The notes under the pieces: generated by a model
Database searches by the model: none
What the model saw: only the letters and a program-made list of their open reading frames with translations
What the model was told of the DNA's origin: nothing
Part shown: in pieces, positions 538-17,112 of the stretch
Layout: every line of letters starts with the position of its first letter
Position numbering within the stretch: position 1 is the stretch's first letter
NCBI GenBank assembly: GCA_958424475.1
Contig: CATZTY010000004.1
Location: forward strand, 1 to 17,112
Origin: an uncultured Collinsella sp.
GTDB taxonomy: Bacteria > Actinomycetota > Coriobacteriia > Coriobacteriales > Coriobacteriaceae
Length of the DNA: 17,112 nucleotides
Direction: 5' to 3'
Translations under genes and position numbers: made by a program

Positions 538-735
538 GTGCGCTCCACATCCATAATCCGACAAATAGGCCCAATGCATGCACATTAGAACCGTATATAG
601 TCAAAAGTATACCCCGAGCGAGCGCAAACGACCGAATTCGGGCCATCTTAACGCCCCGAGCGGACAAGGATATAGCCTAATCTCCATATCGGACTAAAAT
701 CATGGCAGCAAACCACCTTCTCATGCGATGACTCT

Positions 736-1758: not shown

Positions 1759-2662
1759 ACTCACCAGCGAGCAGAGACTCTCGCGCGCCATCGACATCAT
1801 GGAGGCCCTCTACGCCGCCGGCGAGAGCGGCATGACACGAACCGAGATTTGCAGCCGCTTTGACATCACGGGGGTGTCGCTCGACGAGATTCTCGAGATC
1901 GTCTCGACGCTCGCGGACCGAGAATCGGGCGCGCGCATCATCTGCGAATGCCGCGGCGAGCGTGTGGTCCTCACCGGTGACGCCGGGCGTGTGCTACCGT
2001 TGCGCCTGAGTGCCGCCGAGGGCGCTGTGCTCAACCATGAACTTGAATCGTTGGGGATCGAGCCGCAGACGGCAGCTCGGATTCGACATGCCCTTCTACC
2101 CGAAGAGCTCGGCTATAACCAGCGCGTCTTTGACACCGTCAACCACGGGTCGCACTGGCAGCAGCTGAGCTGCGCCATTCAGGATGGCGTTCGCTGCCGC
2201 ATCTCGTATCGCTCGATGGACGATGCACGGCCACGCGAGCGTCTGGTCGACCCCTTGCGCATTACGGCAAACGGCGACCAAACATACCTGATTGCCTGGG
2301 ACATCGCAGTCGATGAGCAGCGCATCTATCGCATGGATAAAATCGAGGGACTCACCTTGACGGAAGACTCCGTCGTGTCTCACGCACCGGACGTCGCATC
2401 CCTCCACGATTCCCTTGCCCGGACGCAGCGTAGCGCAAAGCTCTTGATGCCATTCGATATGGCGGAACATCTGGACTGGGCCGGCATCACCCTAATCGAG
2501 CGCAGCGGAACAGACATGGCAACGGCAACCGTGCATTACGGCTCCGAGCGTTGGCTGCTGAGCCAGATAATCGCAGCGGGCGGAGCCATCCACATCTTGG
2601 ATGACCCCGCCCTGTCAAAGCGTCTGTGCGATATGGCAAAAACCCTCGTCTGTCCGCTTTAG
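1745..2662 (+). CDS. WYL-domain transcriptional regulator (PafB/PafC-like), second of a pair
   Basis: A 305-residue protein. The ATG at 1745 is chosen over a TTG at 1724 because GAAAGGA lies at 1726-1732, about 12 bases upstream, and this start overlaps the previous gene by only 14 bases. Residues about 9-70 are a helical DNA-binding domain (RLSRAIDIMEALYAAGESG, then MTRTEICSRFDIT). A WYL domain follows in the second half, with GDQTYLIAWDIAVDEQRIYR and MDKI, a better match to the family core than in its partner. The C-terminal region is WCX-like. No proteasome or Pup genes are visible nearby, so the usual Paf context is missing in this window. The gene ends convergently with dinG, and the two stop codons overlap. 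Confidence 0.85.
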   Translation: MPVRKLTSEQRLSRAIDIMEALYAAGESGMTRTEICSRFDITGVSLDEILEIVSTLADRESGARIICECRGERVVLTGDAGRVLPLRLSAAEGAVLNHELESLGIEPQTAARIRHALLPEELGYNQRVFDTVNHGSHWQQLSCAIQDGVRCRISYRSMDDARPRERLVDPLRITANGDQTYLIAWDIAVDEQRIYRMDKIEGLTLTEDSVVSHAPDVASLHDSLARTQRSAKLLMPFDMAEHLDWAGITLIERSGTDMATATVHYGSERWLLSQIIAAGGAIHILDDPALSKRLCDMAKTLVCPL

Positions 2663-5553: not shown

Positions 5554-6512
5554 GCAATGCCCGCTCGACGAAGGCCCATACGGATCAGGCTGTCACAGAC
5601 CTGCGGGAACGTCATGTCGTCGGTGTGGCGGATCTCGTCCGGATACAGCGACGTATCGGTCATGCCGGGAATGGTATTGGTCTCGAGGATAACGGGGCCG
5701 TCCTCACTCACAATAAAATCGCTGCGCGAGATACCCAGGCAACCGAGGGCCTTGTGAGCGGCGCAGGCAAGCTCCTGAGCGCGAGCATAATTCTCGGGTG
5801 AAATCTGCGCCGGAATGCGATGGATGTCCGTAGGGTCGACATACTTCACGTCCAGATCGTAGAACTCGCAGTCCTCGGGCTTACGAATCTCGACAATCGG
5901 CAGAGCGCGCACGTCATCTTCGCCGTATACGCCGACGGTGATCTCGGTACCCTCGATGCACTTCTCGACCAGCACTTTGTTGCCGTACTCAAACGCCTTG
6001 GCGATTGCCGCGGGCAGCTCGGAGGGCTCATGGACCAGGGAAATGCCATAGCTGGAACCGTTGACGGCCGGCTTCACAAAGCAGCGCTCGCCACAAACCT
6101 CGACGATATGATCGATATCGACTTCATCTCCCACTTCGAGCGCCAGGCCGGGGGCAATGGGAATGCCCGCCTTGGCGTACAGGAGCTTAGAGACCTCCTT
6201 GTCGGCACCGCAGGCGCTGGCAAGCACGCCCGAAGCCGTGTAGGGGATACCCAGGGTCTCCATGGCGCCCTGCATGGCACCATCCTCGCCGCCGGCACCG
6301 TGCATGGCGATAAACGCCACGTCAAAGCCGCCGGTCGCCATGGTTACCATAAAGTCGTCAGCGGCCGTATCGAGCAGCTCCACCGAGGTGTAGCCGGCTT
6401 CCTTCAGCGCCACCACAACGTTCTTTCCCGAATTGAGCGAGATCTCGCGCTCAGCGGAATGACCGCCCGCCAAGACCGCTACGTGCATGTTCTCTAGGCT
6501 TTTACCCGGCAT
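5547..6512 (-). CDS. ddl: D-alanine--D-alanine ligase
   Basis: A 321-residue ATP-grasp enzyme that joins two D-alanines for the peptidoglycan stem peptide, acting in the cytoplasm. Family landmarks are complete: GGHSAEREISLNSG near the N-terminus (Glu21), KPAVNGSSYGISLV (147-160) with the ligand-binding serine, FYDLDVKY (217-224), and LETNTIPGMTDTSLYP (276-291) with the Mg-binding Asn279. The Lys-Tyr pair 223-224 matches the Tyr of D-Ala-specific enzymes rather than the Phe of D-lactate ligases, so ordinary D-Ala-D-Ala, vancomycin-sensitive termini are expected. The start at 6512 has GAGGAGGAG seven bases upstream; a later ATG at 6488 lacks this. It is translationally coupled to dinG and divergent from rlmN across 85 bases. 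Confidence 0.95.
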   Translation of the reverse strand: MPGKSLENMHVAVLAGGHSAEREISLNSGKNVVVALKEAGYTSVELLDTAADDFMVTMATGGFDVAFIAMHGAGGEDGAMQGAMETLGIPYTASGVLASACGADKEVSKLLYAKAGIPIAPGLALEVGDEVDIDHIVEVCGERCFVKPAVNGSSYGISLVHEPSELPAAIAKAFEYGNKVLVEKCIEGTEITVGVYGEDDVRALPIVEIRKPEDCEFYDLDVKYVDPTDIHRIPAQISPENYARAQELACAAHKALGCLGISRSDFIVSEDGPVILETNTIPGMTDTSLYPDEIRHTDDMTFPQVCDSLIRMGLRRAGIAC

Positions 6513-6597
6513 GGGCAGACTCCTCCTCTATAATTTCTGCAGCTGATACCATATTGTAGCGATACCCTCTACGTTTCCCCAAAATCGAAAGGCTTCC

Positions 6598-7650
6598 ATG
6601 AATCCCAGGACTAAATCTCAGGACATTCGCGACTTGAGCCAAAACGATATTCGCGAGCTCGTGGCCGAGCTTGGCCAGCCCGCCTTCCGCGCGAAGCAGC
6701 TCATCGAATGGGTCTTTGAGAAGAACGTTTGTTCGTTTGACGATATGACCAATCTTCCCAAGGCTTTCCGCGAGCAACTTAAAGAGGCTTTTGCCTTTGA
6801 CACGCCGACTGAACTCACCAAGCAAGTTTCCAAAGATGGCTCTCGCAAGTATCTACTCGAGTACCATGACGGCATTTCCGTCGAGACCGTCGGCATGCCC
6901 CGCCGCAACAAGCTTTCCGTCTGCGTTTCCACCCAGGCAGGCTGCGGCATGGGTTGCGCCTTTTGCGCTACCGGTCTCAACGGCCTCAAGCGCTCTCTGA
7001 CCGCTCAAGAGATCGTCGACCAGGTACTTCATGTATCCAACGACTTTGGCGAGCGCGCCACGAGCGTTGTCTTCATGGGCCAGGGCGAGCCGTTTGCCAA
7101 CTACGACGAGGTTCTCAAGGCGCTGAGAATCCTCAACGACCCCGATGGCATCGGTATCGGCGCTCGTCACCTCACCGTCTCTACCAGCGGCGTTATTCCC
7201 GGTATTCGTAAATTTGCCGACATTCCCGAGCAGTTCACGCTTGCCGTTTCCCTACATTCCGCCATCCAGTCGACGCGTAATAAGCTCATGCCCGGTGTTA
7301 AGAAGTACACGCTGCTTCGCCTTCACGAGGCACTTCAACTCTACACCGAGAAGACTGGCCGCCGCCCGACCTATGAGTACGCCATGATCGAAGGCGTCAA
7401 CGATACGAATCCCGAGATGCAGGCGCTCTGCGACTTCTGCGAGGGAACGCTGTGCCACGTTAACCTGATTCAGCTTAACGACATCGAGGGCAGCCCGCTC
7501 AAGCCGTCGCCGATTCATAAGGTTGAGGATCTTCAGCGTCGTCTTGAGTCCCGTGGCATCGAGACCACGATTCGTAACTCCCGTGGTAACGATATTGACG
7601 CCGCTTGCGGACAGCTGAAGCAGCGCTTCAAGGTTCAGAAGAACGCATAG
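6598..7650 (+). CDS. rlmN: 23S rRNA (adenine-2503-C2) / tRNA (adenine-37-C2) methyltransferase
   Basis: A 350-residue radical-SAM methylase. The iron-sulfur motif is CGMGCAFC (Cys116, Cys120, Cys123). The methyl-carrier cysteine is probably Cys109, seven residues before the cluster motif as in Escherichia coli, and the second catalytic cysteine is Cys337 in NDIDAACGQL. Other family blocks are VVFMGQGEP (157-165), HLTVSTSGVIPGI (191-203) and LAVSLHS (215-221). NSRGNDIDAACGQL and the lack of Cfr-specific features favour RlmN over Cfr, but the families are close. The ATG at 6598 is preceded by GAAAGG about six bases upstream. A perfect TATAAT at 6529-6534 in the 85-bp spacer to ddl may be its -10 element, although no good -35 is visible. 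Transcription ends at the hairpin at 7688-7724. Confidence 0.95.
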   Translation: MNPRTKSQDIRDLSQNDIRELVAELGQPAFRAKQLIEWVFEKNVCSFDDMTNLPKAFREQLKEAFAFDTPTELTKQVSKDGSRKYLLEYHDGISVETVGMPRRNKLSVCVSTQAGCGMGCAFCATGLNGLKRSLTAQEIVDQVLHVSNDFGERATSVVFMGQGEPFANYDEVLKALRILNDPDGIGIGARHLTVSTSGVIPGIRKFADIPEQFTLAVSLHSAIQSTRNKLMPGVKKYTLLRLHEALQLYTEKTGRRPTYEYAMIEGVNDTNPEMQALCDFCEGTLCHVNLIQLNDIEGSPLKPSPIHKVEDLQRRLESRGIETTIRNSRGNDIDAACGQLKQRFKVQKNA

Positions 7651-7668
7651 GGGAGTCGCACCCCAAAA

Positions 7669-7684
7669 CGTTTCATGTGAAACA
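7669..7684. promoter_or_regulatory. Degenerate parS-like site after rlmN
   Basis: CGTTTCATGTGAAACA matches the 16-bp parS of this window (TGTTTCACGTGAAACA) at 14 of 16 bases, differing at positions 1 and 8. It lies 19 bases after the rlmN stop, between the stop and the terminator. It could be a weaker ParB loading site. ParB binding is inferred from similarity only. Confidence 0.55.
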
Positions 7685-7687
7685 TCG

Positions 7688-7724
7688 AACGACCCCGGTT
7701 GCAGAATATGCAACCGGGGTCGTT
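7688..7724 (+). terminator. rho-independent terminator of rlmN
   Basis: Fifteen paired bases (7688-7702 with 7710-7724) enclose a 7-base loop. The stem core is GACCCCGGTTGC / GCAACCGGGGTC. A T-rich tail follows (TTTCATTTATT). The tail direction points to the plus strand, so it ends rlmN transcription. Confidence 0.88.
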
Positions 7725-7785
7725 TCATTTATTGACCTTAATTTTGAATCAGCTGCTACCTGTCCCATGTTTTACGGGCAAAATA

Positions 7786-7821
7786 AGGGGTCCTTGTCTC
7801 GTGAATCAGACAAGGACCCCT
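7786..7821 (-). terminator. rho-independent terminator of the rsmG-parA-parB unit
   Basis: A perfect 14-bp stem, AGGGGTCCTTGTCT at 7786-7799 with its complement at 7808-7821, and an 8-base loop. On the minus strand the stem is followed by TATTTTG, so it ends the minus-strand partition unit, 28 bases past the stop of the small protein. Together with the plus-strand hairpin it insulates two convergent units. Confidence 0.88.
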
Positions 7822-7841
7822 CAAAATATGCTGAGTAATTG

Positions 7842-7853
7842 TTAGGTACCTAA
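7842..7853. repeat. Palindrome TTAGGTACCTAA, copy 1
   Basis: A perfect 12-bp palindrome that overlaps the stop codon of the small protein gene. The same sequence, plus the preceding G, occurs at 11345-11357 between jag and yidC, and I find no third copy in the window. A dimeric protein site is possible; no function is known to me. Confidence 0.6.
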
Positions 7854-8104
7854 TAGCCTACATTTTCCCATTGGTTGCTAACCCAACCTTGATTAATCTT
7901 GGGATTCTTCGTTACCTGAGCAGTACGCATGGCAACATCTTCCGTCATAACATCCATTTTCTTTTTGGAAGTATCGACGATATCTTGCGCGCCACGAAGC
8001 AAACGACCTCGAAGTTCATCGTCTGTCGCAATCTTATAGCCAGCAAAGGCACCAGCCGCGACAGTCGTCACCAATGCAATCGCTGTTAAAATCTTATTCC
8101 TCAT
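7850..8104 (-). CDS. Small membrane-anchored protein (YtxH-like), coupled to parB
   Basis: An 84-residue protein of unknown function. The ATG at 8104 is chosen because AGGAGG lies five to six bases upstream; an in-frame TTG at 8122 would put this ribosome site inside the gene. Residues 4-24 form one hydrophobic helix (ILTAIALVTTVAAGAFAGYK), with a basic residue on each side. The rest is charged and probably helical (DDELRGRLLRGAQDIVDTSK, KKMDVMTEDVA), ending in an aromatic Trp/Asn/Tyr-rich tail. The layout resembles YtxH-type small proteins, but the similarity is by pattern only. It overlaps the parB end by 11 bases, so its translation is probably tied to ParB. A link to chromosome partition or membrane attachment is a guess from position. 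Confidence 0.7.
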   Translation of the reverse strand: MRNKILTAIALVTTVAAGAFAGYKIATDDELRGRLLRGAQDIVDTSKKKMDVMTEDVAMRTAQVTKNPKINQGWVSNQWENVGY

Positions 8105-8999
8105 CTTGGCCTCCTTGATCAAACTGAATCATTTCGCCAAGAATACGAGAGAGCTCTTCCTCGTCTTTAAACTCAATCTCAATCTTATTCTTTCCACGCG
8201 AGCTCTTCACACGCACGTTGGTATTAAATACTTGACGAAGCACACGGGCAGCCTTTTTAAAGGACTGAGGCGTTGCAGGCCTTGGCGTCTTAGGTGTCTC
8301 TCCGGCAGAAAACAACGGAGCAAGATTTTCTGTCGCTCTTACGGAAAGGCCCTCTGCAACTACTTTCTCTGCAAGTCGAATTCGAGCATCCTCATAGGGA
8401 ACTGCAAGAATCGCACGTGCATGACCAGCAGTAAGTTTGCCCTCAAAAATCATCTGCTGAACAACTTCAGGAAGATCGAGAAGGCGCAGCGAGTTTGTAA
8501 TTGCAGAGCGTGACTTGCTTACTGCCTTCGACAATGCCTCCTGCGTCATACCGCTGGCATCGATGAGCTGTCGATAGCCCTTAGCCTCTTCGACGGGATT
8601 CAGGTCAGAACGCTGAAGGTTTTCAATAAGAGCGAGAGCCAACATCTCTTCATCATTAACTTCTTTAATGATGACGGGCAGTTCCTCAAGACCTGCAAGC
8701 TTTGACGCCTGGTAACGACGCTCACCAGCGATGATCTCATAGCCGTTTCCATGTTTGCGAACCAAAAGTGGCTGCAAAACGCCATGTTCTTGGATTGACT
8801 CGCTCAACTCGCGAAGTTCAGTTTCGTTAAAGTGAATTCGCGGCTGGTTAGGGTTGGGAACAATATCCTCAATAGGCAGTTTTGTTTCAGATGATGCATT
8901 TGAACCCGCTGCAGCCGAACCACCGGTCTCATACTCGGCCTCTGAGACCAAAGCATTGAGTCCACGTCCCAATCCGCCACGTTTCTTTACACTAGGCAC
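8094..8999 (-). CDS. parB: Chromosome partitioning protein ParB (Spo0J)
   Basis: A 301-residue CTP-dependent DNA clamp that loads at parS and spreads, recruiting ParA and SMC. Features in order: N-terminal GRGLNAL (11-17), a short Ser/Ala/Gly linker, NPNQPR (49-54), the CTP-binding box GERRYQAS (92-99), ENLQRSDLNPVEEAKGY (126-142), a helix-turn-helix about 152-174 (TQEALSKAVSKSRSAITNSL), GHARAIL (192-198), and a C-terminal dimerisation domain after a Pro-rich linker near residue 235. The start is the GTG at 8999, which overlaps the parA stop by 8 bases and has AGAGGTGAT just upstream inside parA. Its targets are visible: three perfect parS sites just upstream of parA. Base composition is lower in GC than in the operons on either side. 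Confidence 0.97.
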   Translation of the reverse strand: MPSVKKRGGLGRGLNALVSEAEYETGGSAAAGSNASSETKLPIEDIVPNPNQPRIHFNETELRELSESIQEHGVLQPLLVRKHGNGYEIIAGERRYQASKLAGLEELPVIIKEVNDEEMLALALIENLQRSDLNPVEEAKGYRQLIDASGMTQEALSKAVSKSRSAITNSLRLLDLPEVVQQMIFEGKLTAGHARAILAVPYEDARIRLAEKVVAEGLSVRATENLAPLFSAGETPKTPRPATPQSFKKAARVLRQVFNTNVRVKSSRGKNKIEIEFKDEEELSRILGEMIQFDQGGQDEE

Positions 9000-9792
9000 G
9001 CTTGATCACCTCTTTTGCAAGGTTCATATACGCTTTCGCACCCTTATTTTGAGGTGCATAGGTAATTACCGGTTCTCCAAAAGACGGAGCTTCGGAGATT
9101 TTAACCGTACGGGGGATCAGCGTCTTAAACGCCTTATCACCAAAGTACGATTGAACCTCCTCAACAACCTGATTCGATAGAGAGGTACGCGAGTCATACA
9201 TGGTCATAAGCACACCATAGGTATCTAAGCCCTTGTTCAAACGTGATTTGACCATTTTCATTGACTCAAGCAGCTTCGTAACGCCCTCGAGTGCGTAGTA
9301 CTCGCACTGGATCGGAATCAAAACGCTGTCTGCTGCGGTCAAGGCGTTGATAGTAAGCAGGCCGAGCGAAGGAGGACAGTCAATGAAAATAAAATCGAAC
9401 TCGTCCTGAATCGGCTCAAGCAAATCTTTGAGACGGGTTTCACGAGCAATTGCGCTTACAAGCTCAATTTCGGCGCCTGCAAGCTGAATTGTAGCCGGAA
9501 TTACGAATACCTTTTTGCAATTTGTATCAAGAACAAGCGATTCTGCCGGCACATCGTTCAACAATGCATCATAGATGCAGTGATCAAGGTCTTCTTTTTC
9601 AATTCCGAATCCACTGGTGCTGTTTCCCTGCGGATCAAAATCGACAATCAGTGTCTTACGACCCTGCTCACCCAGTGCTGCTGCAAGGTTTACGGCCGTC
9701 GTTGACTTACCGACGCCGCCCTTTTGATTGATGATTGCAATGATACGCGTGTTTTTTGCGCTCTTAGAACGCTTAACGTCGCGAAATCCCAC
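8992..9792 (-). CDS. parA: Chromosome partitioning ATPase ParA (Soj)
   Basis: A 266-residue deviant Walker-type ATPase of the chromosomal ParA/Soj group. The P-loop is KGGVGKST (24-31) with the signature Lys24. Walker A' is VDFDPQGN (50-57) and Walker B is FIFIDCPPSLG (134-144). There is no N-terminal winged helix, so it is the short chromosomal type that binds DNA non-specifically and can also act on DnaA in Bacillus. The GTG at 9792 has AGGAGG four bases upstream. It overlaps parB by 8 bases. The 134-bp spacer upstream holds three parS sites, so ParB spreading there could affect parA transcription. A TTGACA occurs on the minus strand close to the start, but I see no matching -10; cotranscription with rsmG is plausible. 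Confidence 0.97.
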   Translation of the reverse strand: MGFRDVKRSKSAKNTRIIAIINQKGGVGKSTTAVNLAAALGEQGRKTLIVDFDPQGNSTSGFGIEKEDLDHCIYDALLNDVPAESLVLDTNCKKVFVIPATIQLAGAEIELVSAIARETRLKDLLEPIQDEFDFIFIDCPPSLGLLTINALTAADSVLIPIQCEYYALEGVTKLLESMKMVKSRLNKGLDTYGVLMTMYDSRTSLSNQVVEEVQSYFGDKAFKTLIPRTVKISEAPSFGEPVITYAPQNKGAKAYMNLAKEVIKRA

Positions 9793-9831
9793 GGTCCCTC
9801 CTGGTGTGTATTAAAGCTGTCAAACGGAGGA

Positions 9832-9847
9832 TGTTTCACGTGAAACA
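9832..9847. promoter_or_regulatory. parS site 1 (perfect)
   Basis: TGTTTCACGTGAAACA, a perfect 16-bp palindrome identical to the widely conserved bacterial parS. It is 39 bases from the next copy and lies in the leader of parA. Confidence 0.97.
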
Positions 9848-9870
9848 TTCCGAATCGATATCAACCGCCA

Positions 9871-9886
9871 TGTTTCACGTGAAACA
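9871..9886. promoter_or_regulatory. parS site 2 (perfect)
   Basis: Identical TGTTTCACGTGAAACA. It is the middle of three copies, exactly 39 bases from each neighbour. The 23-bp sequences between copies are not repeats of each other, so this is not a tandem duplication of a longer unit. Confidence 0.97.
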
Positions 9887-9909
9887 CTGCAAGTTGTTAG
9901 TATCCATTA

Positions 9910-9925
9910 TGTTTCACGTGAAACA
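9910..9925. promoter_or_regulatory. parS site 3 (perfect)
   Basis: Identical TGTTTCACGTGAAACA, lying directly against the rsmG stop codon at 9927. Third member of the 39-bp-spaced cluster. Confidence 0.97.
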
Positions 9926-9926
9926 T

Positions 9927-10664
9927 CTAGGCAAGCGGATTCTTCTTTGCCATGCCATTTGCACGAGGCAATGAAATGGATGCTGGATGACTCTTCTTAA
10001 GGACGATGAACTCCCTGTGACCCAAGCCTTCAGGTAAATCAATTGCGTCATTCAGAAGCAAAGAGAAGCCGCAAATCTTAGCTGCTGACATACCGGAAGC
10101 AAGCTCCTCATCCGAAGGATTGCCCTTGGTGATAACAAATAGCCCTCCATCCTTGAGGAACGGAGCCGCATACTCAACAAGAATCGGTAGAGGGGCCAGG
10201 GCGCGGGCGGTTACAACGGAGAACTGCTTCTTATGGCTTCGAGCATATTCTTCAAGACGATCGTGGACCGCATGAGCATGTTTCAGTCCAAGAGCATGAA
10301 CAAAAGAATTGACAGCATCAACCTTCTTGCCAACAGAGTCAATATAAGTAGCTTTACGATGCGTGGATATGGTTAACGGAATACCAGGGAAGCCTGCACC
10401 TGTACCCATATCAAGCAAAGCTCCCTCTGGAGCCTTATTGATATAGGGGAGCAAAACAAGTGAGTCGAGGATATGAAGTACGGCAGCATCTTCTACGTTA
10501 AGAATACGGGTGAGATTGGTTGTCTTATTTGTTTCCAGAACCAAGTCCAAATGATGAATACATTTCCTAAGCTCAACATCAGTTACGCTCAAGGAATACT
10601 CTTTGCAATAGGAAGTTAGACGACTCAACATCTCGTCAGCCTGCTGATCGGTAAGTACTAACAA
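9927..10664 (-). CDS. rsmG: 16S rRNA (guanine-527-N7) methyltransferase
   Basis: A Rossmann-fold SAM methylase of about 245 residues that modifies G527 of 16S rRNA. The SAM-binding loop is LLDMGTGAGFPGIPL (about 83-97). The family NLT signature precedes it (TNLTRI), and VTARALAPLPILVEYAAPFL follows. I place the start at the TTG at 10664, because AAAGGAG lies six bases upstream. A TTG at 10712 gives 16 more residues but would put that ribosome site inside the gene and start translation directly on the T-run of the jag terminator. The family length (about 240) also favours the shorter form. It is the first gene of the minus-strand rsmG-parA-parB unit. No strong promoter is visible between the terminator and the start. 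The gene is lower in GC than jag. Confidence 0.93.
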   Translation of the reverse strand: MLVLTDQQADEMLSRLTSYCKEYSLSVTDVELRKCIHHLDLVLETNKTTNLTRILNVEDAAVLHILDSLVLLPYINKAPEGALLDMGTGAGFPGIPLTISTHRKATYIDSVGKKVDAVNSFVHALGLKHAHAVHDRLEEYARSHKKQFSVVTARALAPLPILVEYAAPFLKDGGLFVITKGNPSDEELASGMSAAKICGFSLLLNDAIDLPEGLGHREFIVLKKSHPASISLPRANGMAKKNPLA

Positions 10665-10710
10665 CGAAAGCTCCTTTCTGACAAAAATCAGTGTATCGAG
10701 AACTTTTGAC

Positions 10711-10742
10711 AAAAAAAGGGGACGTGGAAACCACGTCCCCTT
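10711..10742 (-). terminator. rho-independent terminator of the rpmH-jag operon
   Basis: A 10-bp stem GGGGACGTGG / CCACGTCCCC (10718-10727 with 10731-10740), extended by two A-T pairs, with a 3-base loop. On the minus strand it is followed by seven T residues (10717-10711). It separates jag from rsmG. Confidence 0.93.
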
Positions 10743-10760
10743 AGCATAAGCTCGAGTAGA

Positions 10761-11330
10761 TTATCGAGCAACAATCACCACATGGCGATCAGGGTCAGAA
10801 CCCTCAGAATGAGTATCGACGGCATCATTGCCACGAAGTGCAATGTGAACCAGTCGGCGCTCGTAGGCATTCATGGGCGGAAGCGAAACACTCTTATGAG
10901 TGCGGATGGCACGCTCGGCAGCAGACTGAGCCATGGAGGCAACCTTGTCCTGACGGCGGCTCTTGTATCCCTCGACGTCCACTACAACCGGATACCTAAA
11001 GCCAAGCTTGCGGCTCACCAGCAAAGAGAACATAACCTGAAGGGCATCGAGGGTGCGACCATGACGGCCAATGAGAACAGCAAGATCAGGAGCCGTTACA
11101 TCCAAAATCAGCTCACCCTCGTCACCCTCATACTCATCGATAGGAGAGTTGGCGGCATCGAAGTGCGAAAGGATGGAACGCAGGATGGAAATCGCAACAT
11201 CGGCAATGGTGTCGAGCTCCTCATCGGTCAGCTCTTCACCAGCCTTGTAGCGCTGTGCAATCTCGGGATAATCGCCCGCGACCTGCGGGGCAACCTCCTC
11301 AAGCATATCCTCGATGATCTCTTCAGACAT
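10761..11330 (-). CDS. jag: KH-R3H RNA-binding protein Jag (KhpB)
   Basis: A 189-residue single-stranded nucleic-acid-binding protein. The ATG at 11330 is chosen because GGAG lies six bases upstream; a TTG at 11342 precedes that site. The first 75 residues are acidic and helical, with no clear Jag_N domain. A KH domain follows, with the GxxG loop in IGRHGRT (87-93), then an R3H domain at about 145-189 with ERRLVH (Arg158, His162) and a C-terminal VVIVAR strand. In Gram-positive bacteria this protein partners KhpA and influences cell division and elongation through RNA binding. It is the last gene of the rpmH-rnpA-yidD-yidC-jag operon and ends at a strong terminator. The short N-terminal region makes it smaller than many homologues. 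Confidence 0.92.
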   Translation of the reverse strand: MSEEIIEDMLEEVAPQVAGDYPEIAQRYKAGEELTDEELDTIADVAISILRSILSHFDAANSPIDEYEGDEGELILDVTAPDLAVLIGRHGRTLDALQVMFSLLVSRKLGFRYPVVVDVEGYKSRRQDKVASMAQSAAERAIRTHKSVSLPPMNAYERRLVHIALRGNDAVDTHSEGSDPDRHVVIVAR

Positions 11331-11345
11331 AACGTACTCCAAAAG

Positions 11346-11357
11346 TTAGGTACCTAA
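11346..11357. repeat. Palindrome TTAGGTACCTAA, copy 2
   Basis: A second identical 12-bp palindrome, between the yidC stop and the jag start, just upstream of the jag ribosome site. The shared core including the preceding G is 13 bases; beyond it the flanks differ. See copy 1 at 7842. Confidence 0.6.
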
Positions 11358-11374
11358 ATAAGATTGATATCCCA

Positions 11375-12145
11375 CTACTTCTTCTTGTGCGGGCGCGGCT
11401 TCTTCTCTCGACGAGTGACCTCAACCTGCAGCGGCGCGTTCTTAAGACGCTCCTCCTCATCGGCCTTCGCCTTGTCGATGACCTTCTGCGTCACAAAAAT
11501 CTGCTGGATAACCTGCCAAGCAGACGAGACGTCGTAGTACAGCAGAACACCAACGGGAAGGCTCCAGCCCATCCAAAGCATCATGACCGTCATGACAACG
11601 GCCATCATACGCATGCTCTGAGCCTGCTGGCCGGTCTGGTTGCGCGACATGTAGAGCTGCGGAATCAGGGTCAGGACGGCGAACAGGATCAGGCAGACCA
11701 GCGCGGGCAGTGCAACCATAAAGCCATCGGCAAAGGAAGCGCTCGGCGTGGTGGTCAAGTCGGGCAGGATGTTGAAGAACGAGAACGTGCCCTCGTTAAA
11801 GTACTGCGGCAGGTTACGCAGCAGCGTAAACAGGGCACACAGGATAGGCATCTGGATCAACAGCGGCAGACAACCAGCCATGGGGTTGAACTTGTTCTCG
11901 CTGTAGAACTTCTGCATCTCCTCGGCCTGACGCTGGGGATCGTCGGCATAGCGCTCCTGGATCTCGAGCATCTTGGGCTGCAGCACCTGCATGCGAGCCG
12001 TCGACTTGGTCGACTTGAGCATGAGCGGCGTCAGCAGCAGACGGATGATGACCACCAGGATGATGATGGACAGGCCCCAGTCGACCGCAAAGGTCTGGAT
12101 GAGCTTGAGCAGCTCGAAAAGGATGTTAACGATCCAATCCCACAT
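11375..12145 (-). CDS. yidC: Membrane protein insertase YidC/OxaA
   Basis: A 256-residue integral membrane protein of the Oxa1 family, which inserts and folds membrane proteins with or without SecYEG. A hydrophobic segment at about 23-43 carries the conserved groove arginine Arg35 (VVIIRLLLTPL). A cytoplasmic charged hairpin follows (about 45-85, MQVLQPKMLEIQERY), then four more hydrophobic segments, including GCLPLLIQMPILCALF (91-106) and LWMGWSLPVGVLLYY. The basic C-terminus (REKKPRPHKKK) is suited to ribosome contact. There is no N-terminal lipobox, unlike the lipoprotein SpoIIIJ of Firmicutes, and no large periplasmic domain as in Proteobacteria. GGAGG lies nine bases before the ATG. Position between yidD and jag is the conserved one. 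Confidence 0.96.
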   Translation of the reverse strand: MWDWIVNILFELLKLIQTFAVDWGLSIIILVVIIRLLLTPLMLKSTKSTARMQVLQPKMLEIQERYADDPQRQAEEMQKFYSENKFNPMAGCLPLLIQMPILCALFTLLRNLPQYFNEGTFSFFNILPDLTTTPSASFADGFMVALPALVCLILFAVLTLIPQLYMSRNQTGQQAQSMRMMAVVMTVMMLWMGWSLPVGVLLYYDVSSAWQVIQQIFVTQKVIDKAKADEEERLKNAPLQVEVTRREKKPRPHKKK

Positions 12146-12174
12146 GTAAGTTTTCCTCCGATAGCGAGTGCCCG

Positions 12175-12399
12175 CTAGGGCACAGGGTCATAACCGCCGA
12201 CGTGCAGGGGATTGCAGCGAGCGATGCGCCTCACGGCAAGCCAGCAGCCTCTCAAAACACCGTGCTTCTCAATCGCCTGGATGGCGTATTGCGAGCACGT
12301 TGGGTAATAAATGCAGGCGTCAGGCAATAAGGGCGAAATAACCTGTTGATATATGCGAATAGGAGCGATGGCAACACGTCGCAAAACGTGATTGCTCAT
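12175..12399 (-). CDS. yidD: Membrane protein insertion efficiency factor YidD
   Basis: A 74-residue protein with the family signature: [34 protein letters not shown], and the C-terminal [15 protein letters not shown]. Conserved cysteines are Cys29, Cys35 and Cys62. It is an amphipathic inner-membrane-associated factor thought to help YidC-dependent insertion. It overlaps the rnpA stop by 4 bases (ATGA), the usual coupled arrangement, and is followed by yidC after 29 bases. Confidence 0.95.
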
Positions 12400-12734
12400 C
12401 GCTCCTCCCCGGCAACGCCGGCGCGTTTCATAAGCGAACGCAACGCCTTGTCCATCTCCTGCGGCGAGGAAACCCTCGTCTTGGGAGTTGCAAACAAGAT
12501 GATGTCATAACCCGCAACGGGAAATCCGCAGCTGCGGGCGGCCTCGCGCATCACACGCTTAGATCGGTTGCGCACGACGGCACAACCGAGTCGCTTAGCA
12601 CCAACGAAGGCGACCCTTCCGGAGTCGCCTTCGCCAACCGATTCACATATGGTCATTCGAATCAGAGGGTGATTGAAACGACGCCCCTGACTGAACACAT
12701 GCTCGAAATCTTGCCGAGACTTAATAGTCTTCAT
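12396..12734 (-). CDS. rnpA: Ribonuclease P protein component
   Basis: A 112-residue basic protein that binds the RNase P RNA and helps recognise the 5' leader of pre-tRNA. The signature RNR motif is clear in [16 protein letters not shown] (52-67), and the N-terminal FxxVFxxG motif appears as [11 protein letters not shown]. Length is normal for the family. The ATG at 12734 has no recognisable Shine-Dalgarno sequence. It sits 20 bases after the rpmH stop, so translation may depend on reinitiation or coupling with rpmH. Low RnpA output compared with L34 is common. Confidence 0.96.
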
Positions 12735-12754
12735 GCGAGATGTGTGTATCGCTG

Positions 12755-12889
12755 CTAGACAGTGAGACGCTTGCGGCCCTTGGCGCGACGACGGGCGAGC
12801 ACGGCACGACCACCCTTAGTGGCCATACGGGCACGGAAGCCATGGGTCTTGGCACGCTTACGCTTATTAGGCTGATACGTACGCTTCAT
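12755..12889 (-). CDS. rpmH: 50S ribosomal protein L34
   Basis: A 44-residue, highly basic ribosomal protein with the near-invariant start [18 protein letters not shown], followed by [20 protein letters not shown]. The ATG at 12889 has AGGAGG eight bases upstream. An in-frame extension upstream to 12949 is ignored because it runs through the leader hairpin and the ribosome site. First gene of the operon, expressed from the promoter at 12962-12991. Confidence 0.98.
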
Positions 12890-12917
12890 CTTAAGTTCCT
12901 CCTGCTGCATTTCGAGT

Positions 12918-12935
12918 GTCCGCGGGGACGCGGAC
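12918..12935 (-). promoter_or_regulatory. Hairpin in the rpmH leader
   Basis: A 7-bp GC-rich stem, GTCCGCG / CGCGGAC, with a 4-base loop lies in the 5' leader of rpmH between the promoter and the ribosome site. There is no T-run, so it is not a terminator. It could stabilise the mRNA or act in control, but this is not shown. Confidence 0.5.
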
Positions 12936-12961
12936 GCAGATATAGACACGTGAGCTTGAAG

Positions 12962-12991
12962 ATTGTAGGGAAATCAATGTTCAAATGTCAA
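12962..12991 (-). promoter_or_regulatory. Promoter of the rpmH-rnpA-yidD-yidC-jag operon
   Basis: On the minus strand, a perfect TTGACA (12991-12986) and TACAAT (12967-12962) are separated by 18 bases. The predicted start near 12955 gives a leader of about 65 bases before rpmH. It is the strongest sigma70-type promoter I see in the window. Confidence 0.8.
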
Positions 12992-13088
12992 GAAATCAAA
13001 GGTAAAAGGTTGCGCAGTTCACACGGTTCCCCCATAAGCACAACCGAAATTTGCGCCTCATGGCAACCTTTCACGATATTTCATCGAG

Positions 13089-13097
13089 TTTTCAACA
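13089..13097 (+). promoter_or_regulatory. Variant DnaA box 1, TTTTCAACA
   Basis: Part of the 14-mer AGTTTTCAACAGGT (13087-13100), which is repeated at 13140 and, inverted, at 16340. It differs from the usual TTATCCACA at positions 3 and 6. It is 53 bases, about five helical turns, from box 3. Confidence 0.7.
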
Positions 13098-13111
13098 GGT
13101 CATGTTGGCAA

Positions 13112-13120
13112 TGTTGAGAA
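13112..13120 (-). promoter_or_regulatory. Variant DnaA box 2, TTCTCAACA
   Basis: On the minus strand TTCTCAACA, one base from the main variant box. It lies between boxes 1 and 3 in the opposite orientation. Confidence 0.5.
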
Positions 13121-13141
13121 CTTTTCGCCCGTTTTCCAAAG

Positions 13142-13150
13142 TTTTCAACA
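13142..13150 (+). promoter_or_regulatory. Variant DnaA box 3, TTTTCAACA, inside an inverted repeat
   Basis: The second copy of the 14-mer. It is the centre of an inverted repeat with 8-bp arms TTTCCAAA (13133-13140) and TTTGGAAA (13154-13161). TTGTCGAAA follows at 13163-13171, a 9-mer that also abuts the box in the dnaA-dnaN spacer. Confidence 0.7.
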
Positions 13151-13234
13151 GGTTTTGGAAAGTTGTCGAAAGATGAGAAACGCTGCACGGTGAGCTACTA
13201 TTTGTTCGAAACCTTTTGAAAGATTGCGAGCGGC

Positions 13235-14587
13235 ATGTCTGACGACTTTTACACCATGGTCGATTCCGGAGACCCGGCACCCGACAACGAGCACATCACC
13301 GGCGTGCGCGAAGAGCGTGCGGAAGGCGAGCAGACGACCACGCAGGCGCCGAAAGCCATGTACGCCGCGCGCATCGCCGTCTATGACGACATGCTGTCGA
13401 CACCGCGTGTAATCGTCATTGATCCGCAGGATGTCCGCACGTATTTGGAAGAGACGACCAACACCGTCTACCAGTGCATGAAAGAACAAGGTGGCCATAT
13501 CTCGCTCATGGTCATCCGCGAGATTGTCGAAAACTTTATCCACGCGCACTTTGCCGAGCCCATCATCTCGATTCTGGACGGCGGAGACACCATCCGCTTT
13601 GCTGACCAAGGACCCGGCATCGACGACAAGGAACGCGCTTTCGACTTTGGCGTTACCAGTGCAAACAGCAAGATGAAGCGCTATATCCGTGGAACCGGAG
13701 CAGGGTTTCCCATGGTGCAGGAGTATTTGGAAAACGCCGGCGGTGCCGTATCCATCGAGGACAACATGGGCAACGGCACCGTGGTTACGGTAAGCCTGAA
13801 CCCTAAACGCGTGCAGGAAATCGAGCGTGCCGGCGGACGCGGTGCTGCCGTGCGGCCCGAGACGGAGCAGCCCACATATCCCCTGCCGGGAGCTTTTGCG
13901 CAGCAGCCCATGGCAACGCAGCAGATGCAGCCCCCCGTGGGGCAGATACAGCAGCCTGGAATGCTTCCTACACAAGAGCCCCGGGCGGCATCGATGTCGA
14001 TGCCGCCAAACATGCCAGAGGCCATGCCGCTGGCGGATCAGGATGCAGCAGCAATGCAGCAGGCAACGGGGGCACCGGGCGGCCAGCAAATGGGCTATCA
14101 GCCGTACCAACAGGGATATCCATATCAGCAGATGCCGCCACTGGGGTATGACCAGCAGTTCCCGCAGCAGTACCAGCAGGGATATCAGCAGCCGTACCAG
14201 CAGATGCCGCAGCAGCAGTACAACCCTTGGGCCCAGCAGATGCCTCCGCAGCCTTACCAACAGTGGCCTCAAAGTTTTCAACAGCAAATGCCGCCGATGC
14301 AGAGTTCTCAACAACCAGCAGCTCAAATGATGTATCCTAATGCAGCAAATCAGTATGCGCAGCCACAACCGGACGTGTTCGTAAGCGATCGCGGCAACGC
14401 CGCGCTGGGCTATCTGGCGCAAAATCAAGCGTGCGGTGCAACCGATCTGGCGAGGGCGTTTGGAAACTCGGCCCCCACTTGGTCACGCACGCTCAATGAC
14501 TTGGCGCAGGCCGGCTTGGTCATCAAGCATGGCCAGAAATACCATCTGACCGAACTCGGCGCCGCTCGCGTGCGAGCTCAGAGCTAA
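13235..14587 (+). CDS. Origin-linked GHKL ATPase with Gln/Pro-rich linker and C-terminal winged helix
   Basis: A 450-residue protein of unknown function just upstream of dnaA (15 bases). Residues about 86-188 form a GHKL (HATPase_c) ATP-binding domain: N-box IREIVENFIHA (Glu96, Asn100), G1 box DQGPGI (124-129), G2 box GTGAGFPMVQEYLENAGG (153-170) and the final strand NGTVVTVSL. There is no histidine phosphoacceptor (DHp) domain, receiver or membrane segment, so it is not a typical sensor kinase. Residues about 205-382 are low-complexity, with many Gln, Pro, Tyr and Met (YQQGYPYQQMPP and similar, repeated). Residues about 384-448 look like a winged helix (ALGYLAQNQACGATDLARAF, then a WSRTLNDLAQAGLVI recognition part). 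I infer an ATP-dependent DNA-binding protein active at the origin. The start ATG at 13235 has only a weak ribosome site. Confidence 0.85.
   Translation: MSDDFYTMVDSGDPAPDNEHITGVREERAEGEQTTTQAPKAMYAARIAVYDDMLSTPRVIVIDPQDVRTYLEETTNTVYQCMKEQGGHISLMVIREIVENFIHAHFAEPIISILDGGDTIRFADQGPGIDDKERAFDFGVTSANSKMKRYIRGTGAGFPMVQEYLENAGGAVSIEDNMGNGTVVTVSLNPKRVQEIERAGGRGAAVRPETEQPTYPLPGAFAQQPMATQQMQPPVGQIQQPGMLPTQEPRAASMSMPPNMPEAMPLADQDAAAMQQATGAPGGQQMGYQPYQQGYPYQQMPPLGYDQQFPQQYQQGYQQPYQQMPQQQYNPWAQQMPPQPYQQWPQSFQQQMPPMQSSQQPAAQMMYPNAANQYAQPQPDVFVSDRGNAALGYLAQNQACGATDLARAFGNSAPTWSRTLNDLAQAGLVIKHGQKYHLTELGAARVRAQS
14275..14313 (+). promoter_or_regulatory. Two variant DnaA-box-like sequences inside the GHKL gene
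   Basis: TTTTCAACA at 14275-14283 and TTCTCAACA at 14305-14313, in the same orientation, 30 bases apart, inside the Gln-rich coding part. The first shares the 11-mer GTTTTCAACAG with the spacer boxes. They encode Ser/Phe/Gln codons, so chance from codon use is possible. Confidence 0.35.
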
Positions 14588-14602
14588 AGAACGGGAGAGA
14601 CA

Positions 14603-16327
14603 GTGGACGAGGAAGCAAGCATCATCCTGGGGGATGCCATCGCCTTTTGCCAGCGCGACGGCCAAGATGCACGCCTCATCAACATGCTGGGGCAATCGCG
14701 CGCCATAAGCCTGACCGAAGATACGCTCACGATCGAGGCCCCCTCGCGCTTTGCCATCGCCCAGCTCAAAAAGCATCAGCCGACTATTGAGGCCTATCTG
14801 GAAGAAATCGCCTTTGCACCGATTGCGCTCGACATCGTGGCACCGCAAGGCGCCGCGACGGAATCCGCTGCCGCGACGGCGCCCGCCACGGCTCCCGCTG
14901 CTTCCCCGGCGGTGCCGGCCTCCGCAGGCGATGTGTCGGCAATCGAGCACCAGCACAGCGATGTTTCCCGTGAAACCATGGCACCGTTGCCGACCGCGGC
15001 GGCGACGTCAACGAACGTACCCGTCACGCACATGCCCATCGCTCACGACGCAGCGGCGGGCGCGGATTCGGGCATTGCAATCAAGAACACGCTCTCGGCC
15101 GATGATTTTCGTCGCATGATGAACCAGATGAAGGGCGGAGCGCCGACTAAATCCACGCGAGCTGCGACCCCCGCTTCACCCGTGCCAGCACCGACCGTAC
15201 CGGCCGAGCAGAATACGGATGGAGCCCCGCTCGCCGCGAACTCAAAGTTTACCTTTGAGAATTTTGTCTACGGCCCCGAGAACAGCCATGCCTATCGCTC
15301 GGCACTCAAGTTTGCCGCCCTCGCGGACGAGCGCGGCACGTGCACATCGCTGTTCATCTACGGCAAATCGGGCCTGGGCAAGACGCACCTGCTGCTTGCC
15401 ATCAAAAACGAGCTCGCCGAGAAGTCGCCCGAGATCAAGGTCAAGTATGCCAACTCCCAGGCGTATCTGGACGACCTGATGACCGAGTTCGACCGTCAAA
15501 AGAAGAGCAACGCCCCCATCATGCAGGCGTACCACGGCGTGGACGTACTCATCATCGATGACATCCAAAACATCATCGGCAAGCGCGCGAGCGTGGACTA
15601 CTTTTTCCAGCTCATGGACGAGTTCATCCGCAACAACAAGAAGGTCGTCATCGCGGCAGACCGCGCCCCCAAGGACCTGAGCATGGACGAGCGTCTGACC
15701 AGCCGCTTCAACGCCGGCATGCTCTGCCTGGTCGCAGAGCCCAGCTACGAGATGAAATACAAGATCTTGCAGCGCTATTACGAGAACACCATCGTCGCCG
15801 CTCCCGAGGCGGGCGACGACTCGCTGCTGGCGGCCTATGGGGGCGACGGCGGGCACCTGACCGACAAGCACTTTAAACACATGGCCGAGGTCTCGGGCAC
15901 CAACATCCGCGAACTCGAGAGCTTTTGCGAGCGCTGCGCCGGCGAGGCGGGCGACCGCGAGCGCGAGGGCGGGGAACTCACCTTTGACGATATCGACGCC
16001 ATCGCCAGCCAGTACTTCGACACATCGGCCAAAAAGATCAACGTCCAGACGGTTCAGTCCGTCATCGAAGAGCAGTACGGCGTGACGCACGAGGAGCTCA
16101 TCGGCCCGCGTCGCAACGCCAATATCGCCAAAGCACGCCATATCGCTATCTACCTGGCCATCGAGATGTGCGAGATGACGACCACGGCGGTGGGCGCCGA
16201 ATTTGGCAACCGCAACCACTCGACCGTCAGCACGAGCTACAAAAAGGTCCAGAAGATGATCCAGGAAGACCGCACCGTCACCGAAGATCTCAAATCGTTG
16301 CGCGATAAAATTACACTGCGCTCGTAG
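14603..16327 (+). CDS. dnaA: Chromosomal replication initiator protein DnaA
   Basis: A 574-residue initiator. Domain I covers about residues 1-78; an Ala/Pro/Thr-rich domain II of about 130 residues follows. The AAA+ domain begins at FTFENFVYGPENSHAY (216-231), with Walker A GKSGLGKT (254-261), Walker B VLIIDDIQ (315-322) and the arginine finger in LTSRFNAGM (Arg368). Domain IV binds the box, with its signature in NRNHSTVS (536-543). Compared with E. coli, Arg504 and His539 match Arg399 and His434, but Thr527, Thr528, Asn538 and Ser540 replace Leu422, Pro423, Asp433 and Thr435. The start is the GTG at 14603 with GGGAGAG upstream. A parS-like site lies in domain II. It is probably cotranscribed with the GHKL gene. 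Confidence 0.98.
   Translation: MDEEASIILGDAIAFCQRDGQDARLINMLGQSRAISLTEDTLTIEAPSRFAIAQLKKHQPTIEAYLEEIAFAPIALDIVAPQGAATESAAATAPATAPAASPAVPASAGDVSAIEHQHSDVSRETMAPLPTAAATSTNVPVTHMPIAHDAAAGADSGIAIKNTLSADDFRRMMNQMKGGAPTKSTRAATPASPVPAPTVPAEQNTDGAPLAANSKFTFENFVYGPENSHAYRSALKFAALADERGTCTSLFIYGKSGLGKTHLLLAIKNELAEKSPEIKVKYANSQAYLDDLMTEFDRQKKSNAPIMQAYHGVDVLIIDDIQNIIGKRASVDYFFQLMDEFIRNNKKVVIAADRAPKDLSMDERLTSRFNAGMLCLVAEPSYEMKYKILQRYYENTIVAAPEAGDDSLLAAYGGDGGHLTDKHFKHMAEVSGTNIRELESFCERCAGEAGDREREGGELTFDDIDAIASQYFDTSAKKINVQTVQSVIEEQYGVTHEELIGPRRNANIAKARHIAIYLAIEMCEMTTTAVGAEFGNRNHSTVSTSYKKVQKMIQEDRTVTEDLKSLRDKITLRS
14962..14977. promoter_or_regulatory. Degenerate parS-like site inside dnaA
   Basis: TGTTTCCCGTGAAACC matches parS at 14 of 16 bases (positions 7 and 16 differ). 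It encodes VSRET in the poorly conserved linker of DnaA, where the protein sequence is free to vary. ParB binding is inferred. Confidence 0.5.
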
Positions 16328-16335
16328 GGAAATAG

Positions 16336-16380
16336 AGACACCTGTTGAAAACTTGTCGAAACCACGGGCATAAGGTGTCT
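16336..16380. repeat. Inverted repeat after dnaA enclosing a DnaA box
   Basis: Arms AGACACCT (16336-16343) and AGGTGTCT (16373-16380) are perfect complements with 29 bases between them. No T-run follows on the plus strand, so it is a poor terminator. Confidence 0.55.
16343..16351 (-). promoter_or_regulatory. Variant DnaA box, TTTTCAACA, inverted
   Basis: On the minus strand this is the third exact copy of the 14-mer AGTTTTCAACAGGT (16353-16340). It is followed on the plus strand by TTGTCGAAA (16353-16361), as also seen near box 3. Confidence 0.7.
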
Positions 16381-16518
16381 AAAACCCAAACCGCGGTGAT
16401 GAAAAGTTTTGCGCAGGTTTTGAACGTGGAAAACCACCCCTGTTGCACACAGGTTGCTGTCGATTCTCTTTCTGGGTCTGACCTGCGTCTTTGGGAGTAA
16501 TCAACAGTTTCGTCAGTG

Positions 16519-16533
16519 CTATTACTATTATTA
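16519..16533 (+). promoter_or_regulatory. DnaA-trio-like array
   Basis: The plus strand reads CTA TTA CTA TTA TTA. The other strand, read 3' to 5', is GAT AAT GAT AAT AAT, which fits the 3'-[G/A]AT-5' DnaA-trio unit five times. A box-like TAATCAACA lies 12 bases upstream and AT-rich DNA follows directly. Confidence 0.65.
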
Positions 16534-16565
16534 AGATATTTATATCTATAGAAAGGTATTAAAAG

Positions 16566-17112
16566 ATGAAGTTCACCGTCAGCCAGAGCTCGCTTACACA
16601 AGCCATCGGCGTCGTTATGAAGGGTGTCGCTTCGGCATCCACCCTTCCCATCCTGTCGGGCGTGCTCGTCAAGGCGCAAGACGGCATCTTGGAATTCCAG
16701 ACCTCTAACTACACCATCTCGATCCGTCATCGCATCGCGGCGCATGTCGAAGAAGAGGGTGAGATGGTTATCCCCTGTAAGATGCTCTCCAATATCACCA
16801 AGACTCTCCCCGATGCCCCGGTCACCTTTGAGCTGTCCGAGCGCCAGGTGCTGATCAGTTGCGAGAAGAGCTCTTTCCGCCTGAACACGCTCGATGCCAA
16901 TGACTTCCCCGAGTTTCCGGCCTATGCCATCGAGAGTGCCGTGGAGCTGCCGACCGATATCTTGTCCGAAATGGTCGGCCGCGTGTGGCGCGTCACCTCG
17001 ACCGACAAGGCTCGCCCCATCCTGGGCGGCGTGCACATGAAGGTCGAGAACAACACCGTACGCCTGGTAGCGACCGATTCCTTCCGCTTGGCCGTGTGCG
17101 ATACGCAGGTCG
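16566..17112 (+). CDS. dnaN: DNA polymerase III beta sliding clamp, N-terminal part
   Basis: Only the first 182 codons are present; the gene continues past the right edge. The start MKFTVSQSSLTQAIGVV is typical of the beta clamp, followed by LPILSGVLVKA (29-39), the FRLNTLDANDFPEFP segment (105-119) and, at the beginning of domain two, TSTDKARPILGGVHMKVEN and VRLVATDSFRLAV. The clamp is a ring-shaped dimer with three similar domains per subunit that holds polymerase III on DNA. The ATG at 16566 has GAAAGG nine bases upstream. Its leader overlaps the probable origin, so dnaN expression and origin opening may influence each other. Confidence 0.96.
   Translation, partial: MKFTVSQSSLTQAIGVVMKGVASASTLPILSGVLVKAQDGILEFQTSNYTISIRHRIAAHVEEEGEMVIPCKMLSNITKTLPDAPVTFELSERQVLISCEKSSFRLNTLDANDFPEFPAYAIESAVELPTDILSEMVGRVWRVTSTDKARPILGGVHMKVENNTVRLVATDSFRLAVCDTQV

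Follow-up and report, generated by a model that had tools for sequence, protein, structure and literature searches.

For Bacillus subtilis and Helicobacter pylori, the part of PMC8235120 on which we draw describes origins that are bipartite around dnaA, with DnaA-box arrays on both sides of the gene and a DnaA-trio element by the array on the dnaN side. Here we analysed a 17,112-nucleotide stretch of DNA from an uncultured Collinsella sp. (contig CATZTY010000004.1, positions 1 to 17,112 of the forward strand; the whole stretch is called the window below), in which box arrays likewise lie on both sides of dnaA. Unlike in those two origins, a gene for an ATPase with a winged helix, the open reading frame (ORF) 13235..14587, stands between the arrays, and in part of the Coriobacteriaceae boxes lie inside the gene itself. 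Among described proteins, SpoIIAB and RsbW resemble the product of this ORF in having a single GHKL domain without a DHp (histidine-kinase dimerisation) domain, and its N-box Glu and Asn are invariant, as we take them to be in SpoIIAB/RsbW from a motif comparison. In Csa3/CasR-type regulators, too, a ligand-switched domain precedes a winged helix of this type, winged helix-turn-helix matches included, whereas their sensor is a CARF domain in place of the GHKL ATPase, and no CRISPR gene was recognised in the window. DIP2311 of Corynebacterium diphtheriae (PDB 3lmm) has the GHKL-like fold in common with it at 14-15% identity, and one 210-residue alignment spans both domains, at 9.3 Å. In contrast, 3lmm has a further N-terminal part, which we take to be AlbA_2; this part is absent here, where about 40 residues precede the ATPase region and AlbA_2 gave no match up to E 1 in the ORF 13235..14587 protein.

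We propose that the gene, as the first of an apparent dnaA operon placed between the halves of a bipartite origin, encodes an ATP-switched DNA-binding regulator of the dnaA operon and/or of initiation, a reading to which we assign a probability of about 0.6. It is based on the domains, the intact ATPase motifs, the fixed place before dnaA, the box arrays on either side, and more boxes in the linker DNA than codon use accounts for. The features concerned are as follows.

13235..14587, + strand: GHKL ATPase, linker and winged-helix gene, 450 amino acids, ATG start; first gene of the apparent dnaA operon
13355..13834, + strand: N-terminal strand motif RIAVYDD and GHKL ATPase domain (residues 41-200)
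13835..14386, + strand: linker-coding DNA (residues 201-384; predicted to be disordered, Gln/Pro-rich)
14387..14584, + strand: C-terminal MarR-like winged helix (residues 385-450)
14603..16327, + strand: dnaA, 574 amino acids, GTG start, following the gene
12758..12889, - strand: rpmH, the divergent neighbour that marks the conserved site

The initial annotation had read the protein as a GHKL ATPase joined by a linker to a winged helix, and the motifs, the HATPase_c match and the winged-helix matches were all found. Pfam HATPase_c (PF02518) matches residues 93-189 with an E of 1e-10 and was matched in 26 of 26 orthologues. The GHKL motifs are readable as IREIVENFIHA (94-104), DQGPGI (124-129) and GTGAG (153-157), and the residues invariant in a 99-row alignment are E96, N100 and H103 of the N-box, D124, G126 and G128 of G1, and G153, G155 and G157 of G2. 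The winged-helix region (about 385-444) is matched by HVO_A0261_N (E 1.3e-7) and by MarR/IclR-type models, all below their curated cut-offs; the Pfam gathering scores of MarR (16.2 vs 24.6 bits) and MarR_2 (21.7 vs 27) were missed by the ORF 13235..14587 protein. A winged helix is present, complete with recognition helix and wing, though the protein is not filed as a MarR protein, and it is kept throughout the GHKL-winged-helix family. Structure prediction, which had been proposed as a check, gave two well-modelled domains: in AlphaFold2 the mean predicted local distance difference test (pLDDT) score per ten residues is mostly 84-98 for both, with a few ATPase-domain blocks at 73-79, and falls to 39-57 across linker residues 201-380. 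A second structure model (A4) was that of P0237, from a metagenome-assembled genome (MAG) labelled Armatimonadota by its source. The missing dimerisation domain was likewise corroborated, as no HisKA/DHp model is among the 12 Pfam families listed for the ORF 13235..14587 protein or among the 25 of 31 Pfam families shown for the 26 orthologues. A two-component histidine kinase was rejected because no DHp was found despite HATPase_c. A defence gene was rejected as well; the sole PADLOC matches are weak and confined to the winged helix.

A GHKL domain without DHp also suits a serine kinase or anti-sigma protein of the SpoIIAB/RsbW kind to which a winged helix was added; such a protein would phosphorylate or sequester a partner (a sigma factor or DnaA) while the helix only positions it on DNA. 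The N-box glutamate is invariant, one source labels relatives 'anti-sigma regulatory factor (Ser/Thr protein kinase)', and the NCBIfam SpoIIAB model (TIGR01925) matches 12 of the 26 orthologues at E ≤ 1e-3, far below its cut-off (23.4 vs 135 bits for the first member). Against this, the SpoIIAB model is not within the best 25 of 42 NCBIfam matches for the ORF 13235..14587 protein, several histidine-kinase models match 12-15 of the 26 members, and a pure anti-sigma factor needs no winged helix. Since the winged helix is fused and conserved family-wide, and no sigma or STAS gene was recognised among the window translations in a look that was not systematic, this alternative is weakened and we regard it as improbable; kinase chemistry may be compatible with the ATPase core alone.

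The place of the gene was then compared among genomes. With the end of the stop codon at 14587 and the dnaA GTG at 14603, 15 bases separate the two genes, as originally annotated. In 139 tabulated loci, which are not all independent (near-identical C. aerofaciens rows are among them and some genomes were fetched twice), the next gene is a same-strand dnaA in 127 and a divergent rpmH lies upstream in 134; 122 loci show both neighbours, and 118 have dnaN after dnaA. Where dnaA is not in view (12 loci), the sequence stops within 400 bases past the gene in 11, several of them at the end of one-contig or few-contig genomes, and L117 has a run of N within the linker; four of the five loci without rpmH begin within 550 bases of the ATPase domain. 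The arrangement extends to the 40 loci from outside the order (L149-L188), of which 32 show dnaA and 37 show rpmH. Start codons of the orthologues are script guesses.

Of 58 relatives, 53 match at E ≤ 1e-3, five of them only weakly (best E > 1e-6), which leaves a clear orthologue in 48. The ATPase-domain profile is matched at E ≤ 1e-8 by 264 of 296 genomes of the class (252 of the 268 good genomes) and, in the phylum sample, by 158 of 396, Rubrobacter included. Matches are nearly always single per matching genome; genomes of genus code g269 (G554, G582, G596, G621, G627, G665 and G666) have two, or three in G665, the extra ones being possible paralogues. Rubrobacter is one carrier group outside the class (P0250 is named Rubrobacter xylanophilus by its source), and further source names in the family are Candidatus Aquicultor, Candidatus Oleimmundimicrobium, one 'Firmicutes/Bacillota' MAG and two 'Armatimonadota' MAGs. 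Profiles built from two parts of the family aligned over 243 columns with a probability of 100. Divergence of the gene tracks that of DnaA (72 loci, Mantel r 0.56, permutation maximum 0.13), a pattern consistent with mostly vertical inheritance. The initial annotation had staked its link to dnaA on conservation of the gene and of its position within Coriobacteriia; because both are conserved far beyond the class, that link survives.

The neighbourhood as a whole is also preserved: beyond rpmH, the order rnpA, yidC, jag, rsmG, parA, parB is largely kept. Because the whole block is kept, position alone is no proof of a role in initiation, and the protein could instead be a transcription factor for a wider regulon, responding for example to ATP or energy status, whose gene sits in a frozen block without acting on the origin. 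MarR-type domains usually regulate transcription, which speaks for this alternative. On the other side, the block contains the apparent chromosome origin, the gene adjoins dnaA between two DnaA-box arrays, and its divergence follows that of DnaA; we consider the wider-regulon explanation unlikely, though less so than the anti-sigma one.

Outside the gene, the origin features of the window are these.

12890..13234, no strand: first origin spacer, from rpmH to the gene; upstream half of the bipartite DnaA-box array
13089..13120, no strand: convergent DnaA-box pair, starts 23 bp apart (13089 on the + strand, 13112 on the - strand)
13142..13150, + strand: DnaA box TTTTCAACA
16328..16565, no strand: second origin spacer, from dnaA to dnaN
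16343..16351, - strand: DnaA box TTTTCAACA
16519..16533, + strand: CTATTACTATTATTA, predicted unwinding element with DnaA-trio-like triplets that continue into AT-rich sequence ahead of dnaN

The variant DnaA box TTNTCAACA occurs six times in the window, all within 13089-16351, against 0.39 expected, and none of 200 shuffles reached six. Three copies lie in the rpmH-side spacer, two within linker codons (14275 and 14305) and one in the dnaA-dnaN spacer, and TTTTCAACA is common to both flanking spacers, in keeping with the earlier claim that the gene is bracketed by spacers sharing a variant box. The CTATTACTATTATTA-like block before dnaN is conserved in 32 aligned Coriobacteriaceae spacers and fits the DnaA-trio element of B. 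subtilis and H. pylori. With DnaA-box clusters flanking dnaA and a trio plus AT-rich element beside one of them, the origin is apparently bipartite, as judged from sequence. Of 134 loci, 51 have the convergent 23-bp pair upstream of the gene, where 0.44 would be expected (near-identical rows counted); convergent pairs also occur at 22, 24, 12 and 11 bp, and in deeper lineages often with a third box-like sequence between. This box-pair module spans Coriobacteriaceae to other classes, with spacings of 24 and 12 bp in Rubrobacter, and may subject the gene to the control that acts on dnaA. The Rubrobacter group (L167-L171) has, in its upstream spacer, three boxes 12 and 24 bp apart (+, -, -) that are followed by CCTGCAAA in 5 of 5 loci, and the dnaA-dnaN spacer of L171 holds 15 TTNTCCACA boxes.

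DnaA itself carries the signature NRNHSTV in the window, presumably the counterpart of GRDHTTV in Escherichia coli. Where Asn stands at the Asp position (23 loci, 17 of them near-identical C. aerofaciens-type rows), origin boxes are CAACA in 89 cases vs CCACA in 3; with Ser, Thr or His there (33 loci) the numbers are 52 vs 12, and with Asp (66 loci) 122 vs 153, 24 of the Asp loci still favouring CAACA. Two gapped loci were excluded from this tally, which suggests a shift in DnaA-box specificity.

Two boxes overlooked in the initial annotation lie within the gene.

14275..14283, + strand: DnaA box TTTTCAACA within linker codons
14305..14313, + strand: DnaA box TTCTCAACA within linker codons

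In the linker DNA of 51 loci, TTNTC(A/C)ACA occurs 32 times, whereas 1000 synonymous shuffles average 2.47 and reach 9 at most; because the rows are related (the window, L084 and L125 supply 6, and L116/L118 and others are near twins), these 32 boxes are not 32 independent events. Rows near-identical to the window (L069-L086, except L084) were excluded from the shuffle count, and L093, L100, L102, L103 and L123 lie outside it and are in the 38-row tree. Four composition-matched control motifs gave 0, 1, 0 and 0 occurrences in linker DNA; on the shuffles and these controls, chance or Gln-codon composition was rejected as the source of the boxes. The excess reaches beyond the linker, with 50 boxes in the whole gene vs 7.0 expected. 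Two exact + strand boxes stand 22 bp apart, 264-337 bp before the gene end, in 11 of 33 Coriobacteriaceae rows, and with that spacing the paired boxes are in different reading frames; in L089, the identical nine bases read Phe-Pro-Gln and Phe-Ser-Thr. The linker boxes of the window and L125 are 30 bp apart and in the same frame. An exact box is present in that linker stretch in 16 of the 33 rows, and the 38-row tree has a box anywhere in the linker in 21 rows, with 6 changes. In many loci of the Atopobiaceae group the boxes stand between the gene and dnaA instead, frequently 47-110 bases ahead of the first DnaA-like residue. We conclude from these comparisons that the linker boxes are probably kept for their DNA in part of the Coriobacteriaceae, where they may serve dnaA autoregulation, titration or extension of the orisome.

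As protein, the linker (residues 201-384) consists of 26.6% Gln, 17.9% Pro, 10.9% Ala, 8.7% Met and 7.1% Tyr, and had been described as prion-like, possibly forming condensates. The Gln/Pro/Tyr-rich composition and the predicted disorder hold for this protein; neither length nor composition is conserved among orthologues. About 10-40 residues separate the domains in most orthologues outside Coriobacteriales (62 in L152; a printed 155 in L166 is an artefact of a split domain match), and within Coriobacteriales the linker ranges from about 14 to about 270, several being about 10-60. Over 41 longer-linker rows, Gln varies from 3 to 26%, Ala from 10 to 30%, Gly from 4 to 24% and Asn from 0 to 5%, and in two Coriobacteriaceae rows Gln is down to 3% with Ala/Gly/Pro in its place. 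Since lengths are short elsewhere and composition drifts, the prion-like character is, on these alignments, a local trait and is ruled out as the mechanism of the family. It follows that prion-like condensates gathering DnaA or DNA at the origin, an idea that draws on the low-complexity, predicted disordered linker of Collinsella aerofaciens and its relatives, are very improbable; as a conserved function they were rejected on linker lengths and composition, although a condensate function within Coriobacteriaceae alone may exist. A long Ala/Pro-rich segment resembling this linker is seen in domain II of the neighbouring DnaA (about residues 90-200, encoded in 14603-16327).

The spacers were also searched for a winged-helix site. 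Enrichment of 7-mers gave mainly DnaA boxes, an apparent rpmH promoter and an AT-rich element. Of two leads, both chosen after viewing the alignments and to be read as leads only, CCTGCAAA was counted in 7 of 32 deep loci in the upstream spacer (0.66 expected); its count for the Rubrobacter group is 5 of 5. The other, ACCTGC, occurs in the dnaA-dnaN spacer in 11 of 31 Coriobacteriaceae (2.7 expected) and 10 of 20 Atopobiaceae-group loci (1.2 expected); among deep loci it was seen in 2 of 20 (1.4 expected), and none of 7 other Coriobacteriales had it. An ACCTGC-type element lies at about 16482 in the window. Many Coriobacteriaceae have it some 84-98 bases ahead of dnaN, with the DnaA boxes on one side and the unwinding element on the other; a second protein might bind there.

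Several observations weigh against a regulator of the dnaA operon or of initiation. No motif beyond DnaA boxes could be convincingly tied to the winged helix in the spacer searches. Two loci that lack the gene (L228 and L237) have the 23-bp convergent pair too; for that reason the pair is most simply taken as a site of DnaA itself, in its operon or origin, and it was rejected as an operator of the winged helix. By profile, the gene is missing in six class members in which the rpmH-dnaA junction is present (L221-L226, with a gap of 1375 bases in L221) and in 14 phylum members (L227-L240; rpmH seen in 12), and is thus dispensable in some lineages. Ten of the 33 genomes checked for absence have no DnaA match at E ≤ 1e-20, so their lack of the gene could reflect a gap in the assembly. 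For L162, 5 kb of upstream sequence gave no rpmH match. In several loci, the gap between the gene and dnaA measures 75-200 bases and holds DnaA boxes, so dnaA may own a promoter there. Finally, the linker stretch considered above is without an exact box in 17 of the 33 Coriobacteriaceae rows.

Under the regulator proposed here, the gene would head, and be co-transcribed with, the dnaA operon in many actinobacterial lineages. The GHKL ATPase would probably dimerise or change shape upon ATP binding and, through a flexible tether, act on the MarR-like winged helix, which most likely binds the dnaA operon promoter and/or the origin housing its own gene; the state set by ATP would then raise or lower dnaA expression or orisome assembly. 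In this scheme, ATP binding and all that follows it are extrapolated from the GHKL and winged-helix families. Coriobacteriaceae have a long tether, whose DNA may, in some members, double as an origin element by way of its DnaA boxes. A bolder version, which we advance only tentatively, makes the protein a replication-initiation factor absent from the papers searched: the ATPase would load the winged helix on the origin in an ATP-dependent manner and partner or restrain DnaA, the factor would be an ancestral trait of many actinobacterial classes that others have lost, and in Coriobacteriaceae its coding sequence would have been made part of the origin by boxes in two linker frames. Nothing on the gene was found in the literature searched, and silence there is no proof of absence in print.

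Elsewhere in the window, ORFs 736-1758 and 1724-2662 are adjacent on the + strand with a 35-base overlap, and their translations resemble what we take to be a pair of helix-turn-helix WYL-type regulators.

To our knowledge, the regulation of DnaA is largely unknown outside a few model bacteria. Because it occupies the same spot in distant actinobacteria and carries DnaA boxes in its variable middle part, the gene makes a good candidate regulator of initiation, and one that has been overlooked. An unnamed gene, predicted to encode a DNA-binding ATPase, beside dnaA in the gut commensal Collinsella, in Rubrobacter and in further actinobacterial lineages thus offers a candidate that can be tested as a single gene. 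The linker boxes, for their part, point to a low-complexity protein segment that is seemingly constrained by the origin function of its DNA, and they warn against reading such linkers purely as prion-like protein.
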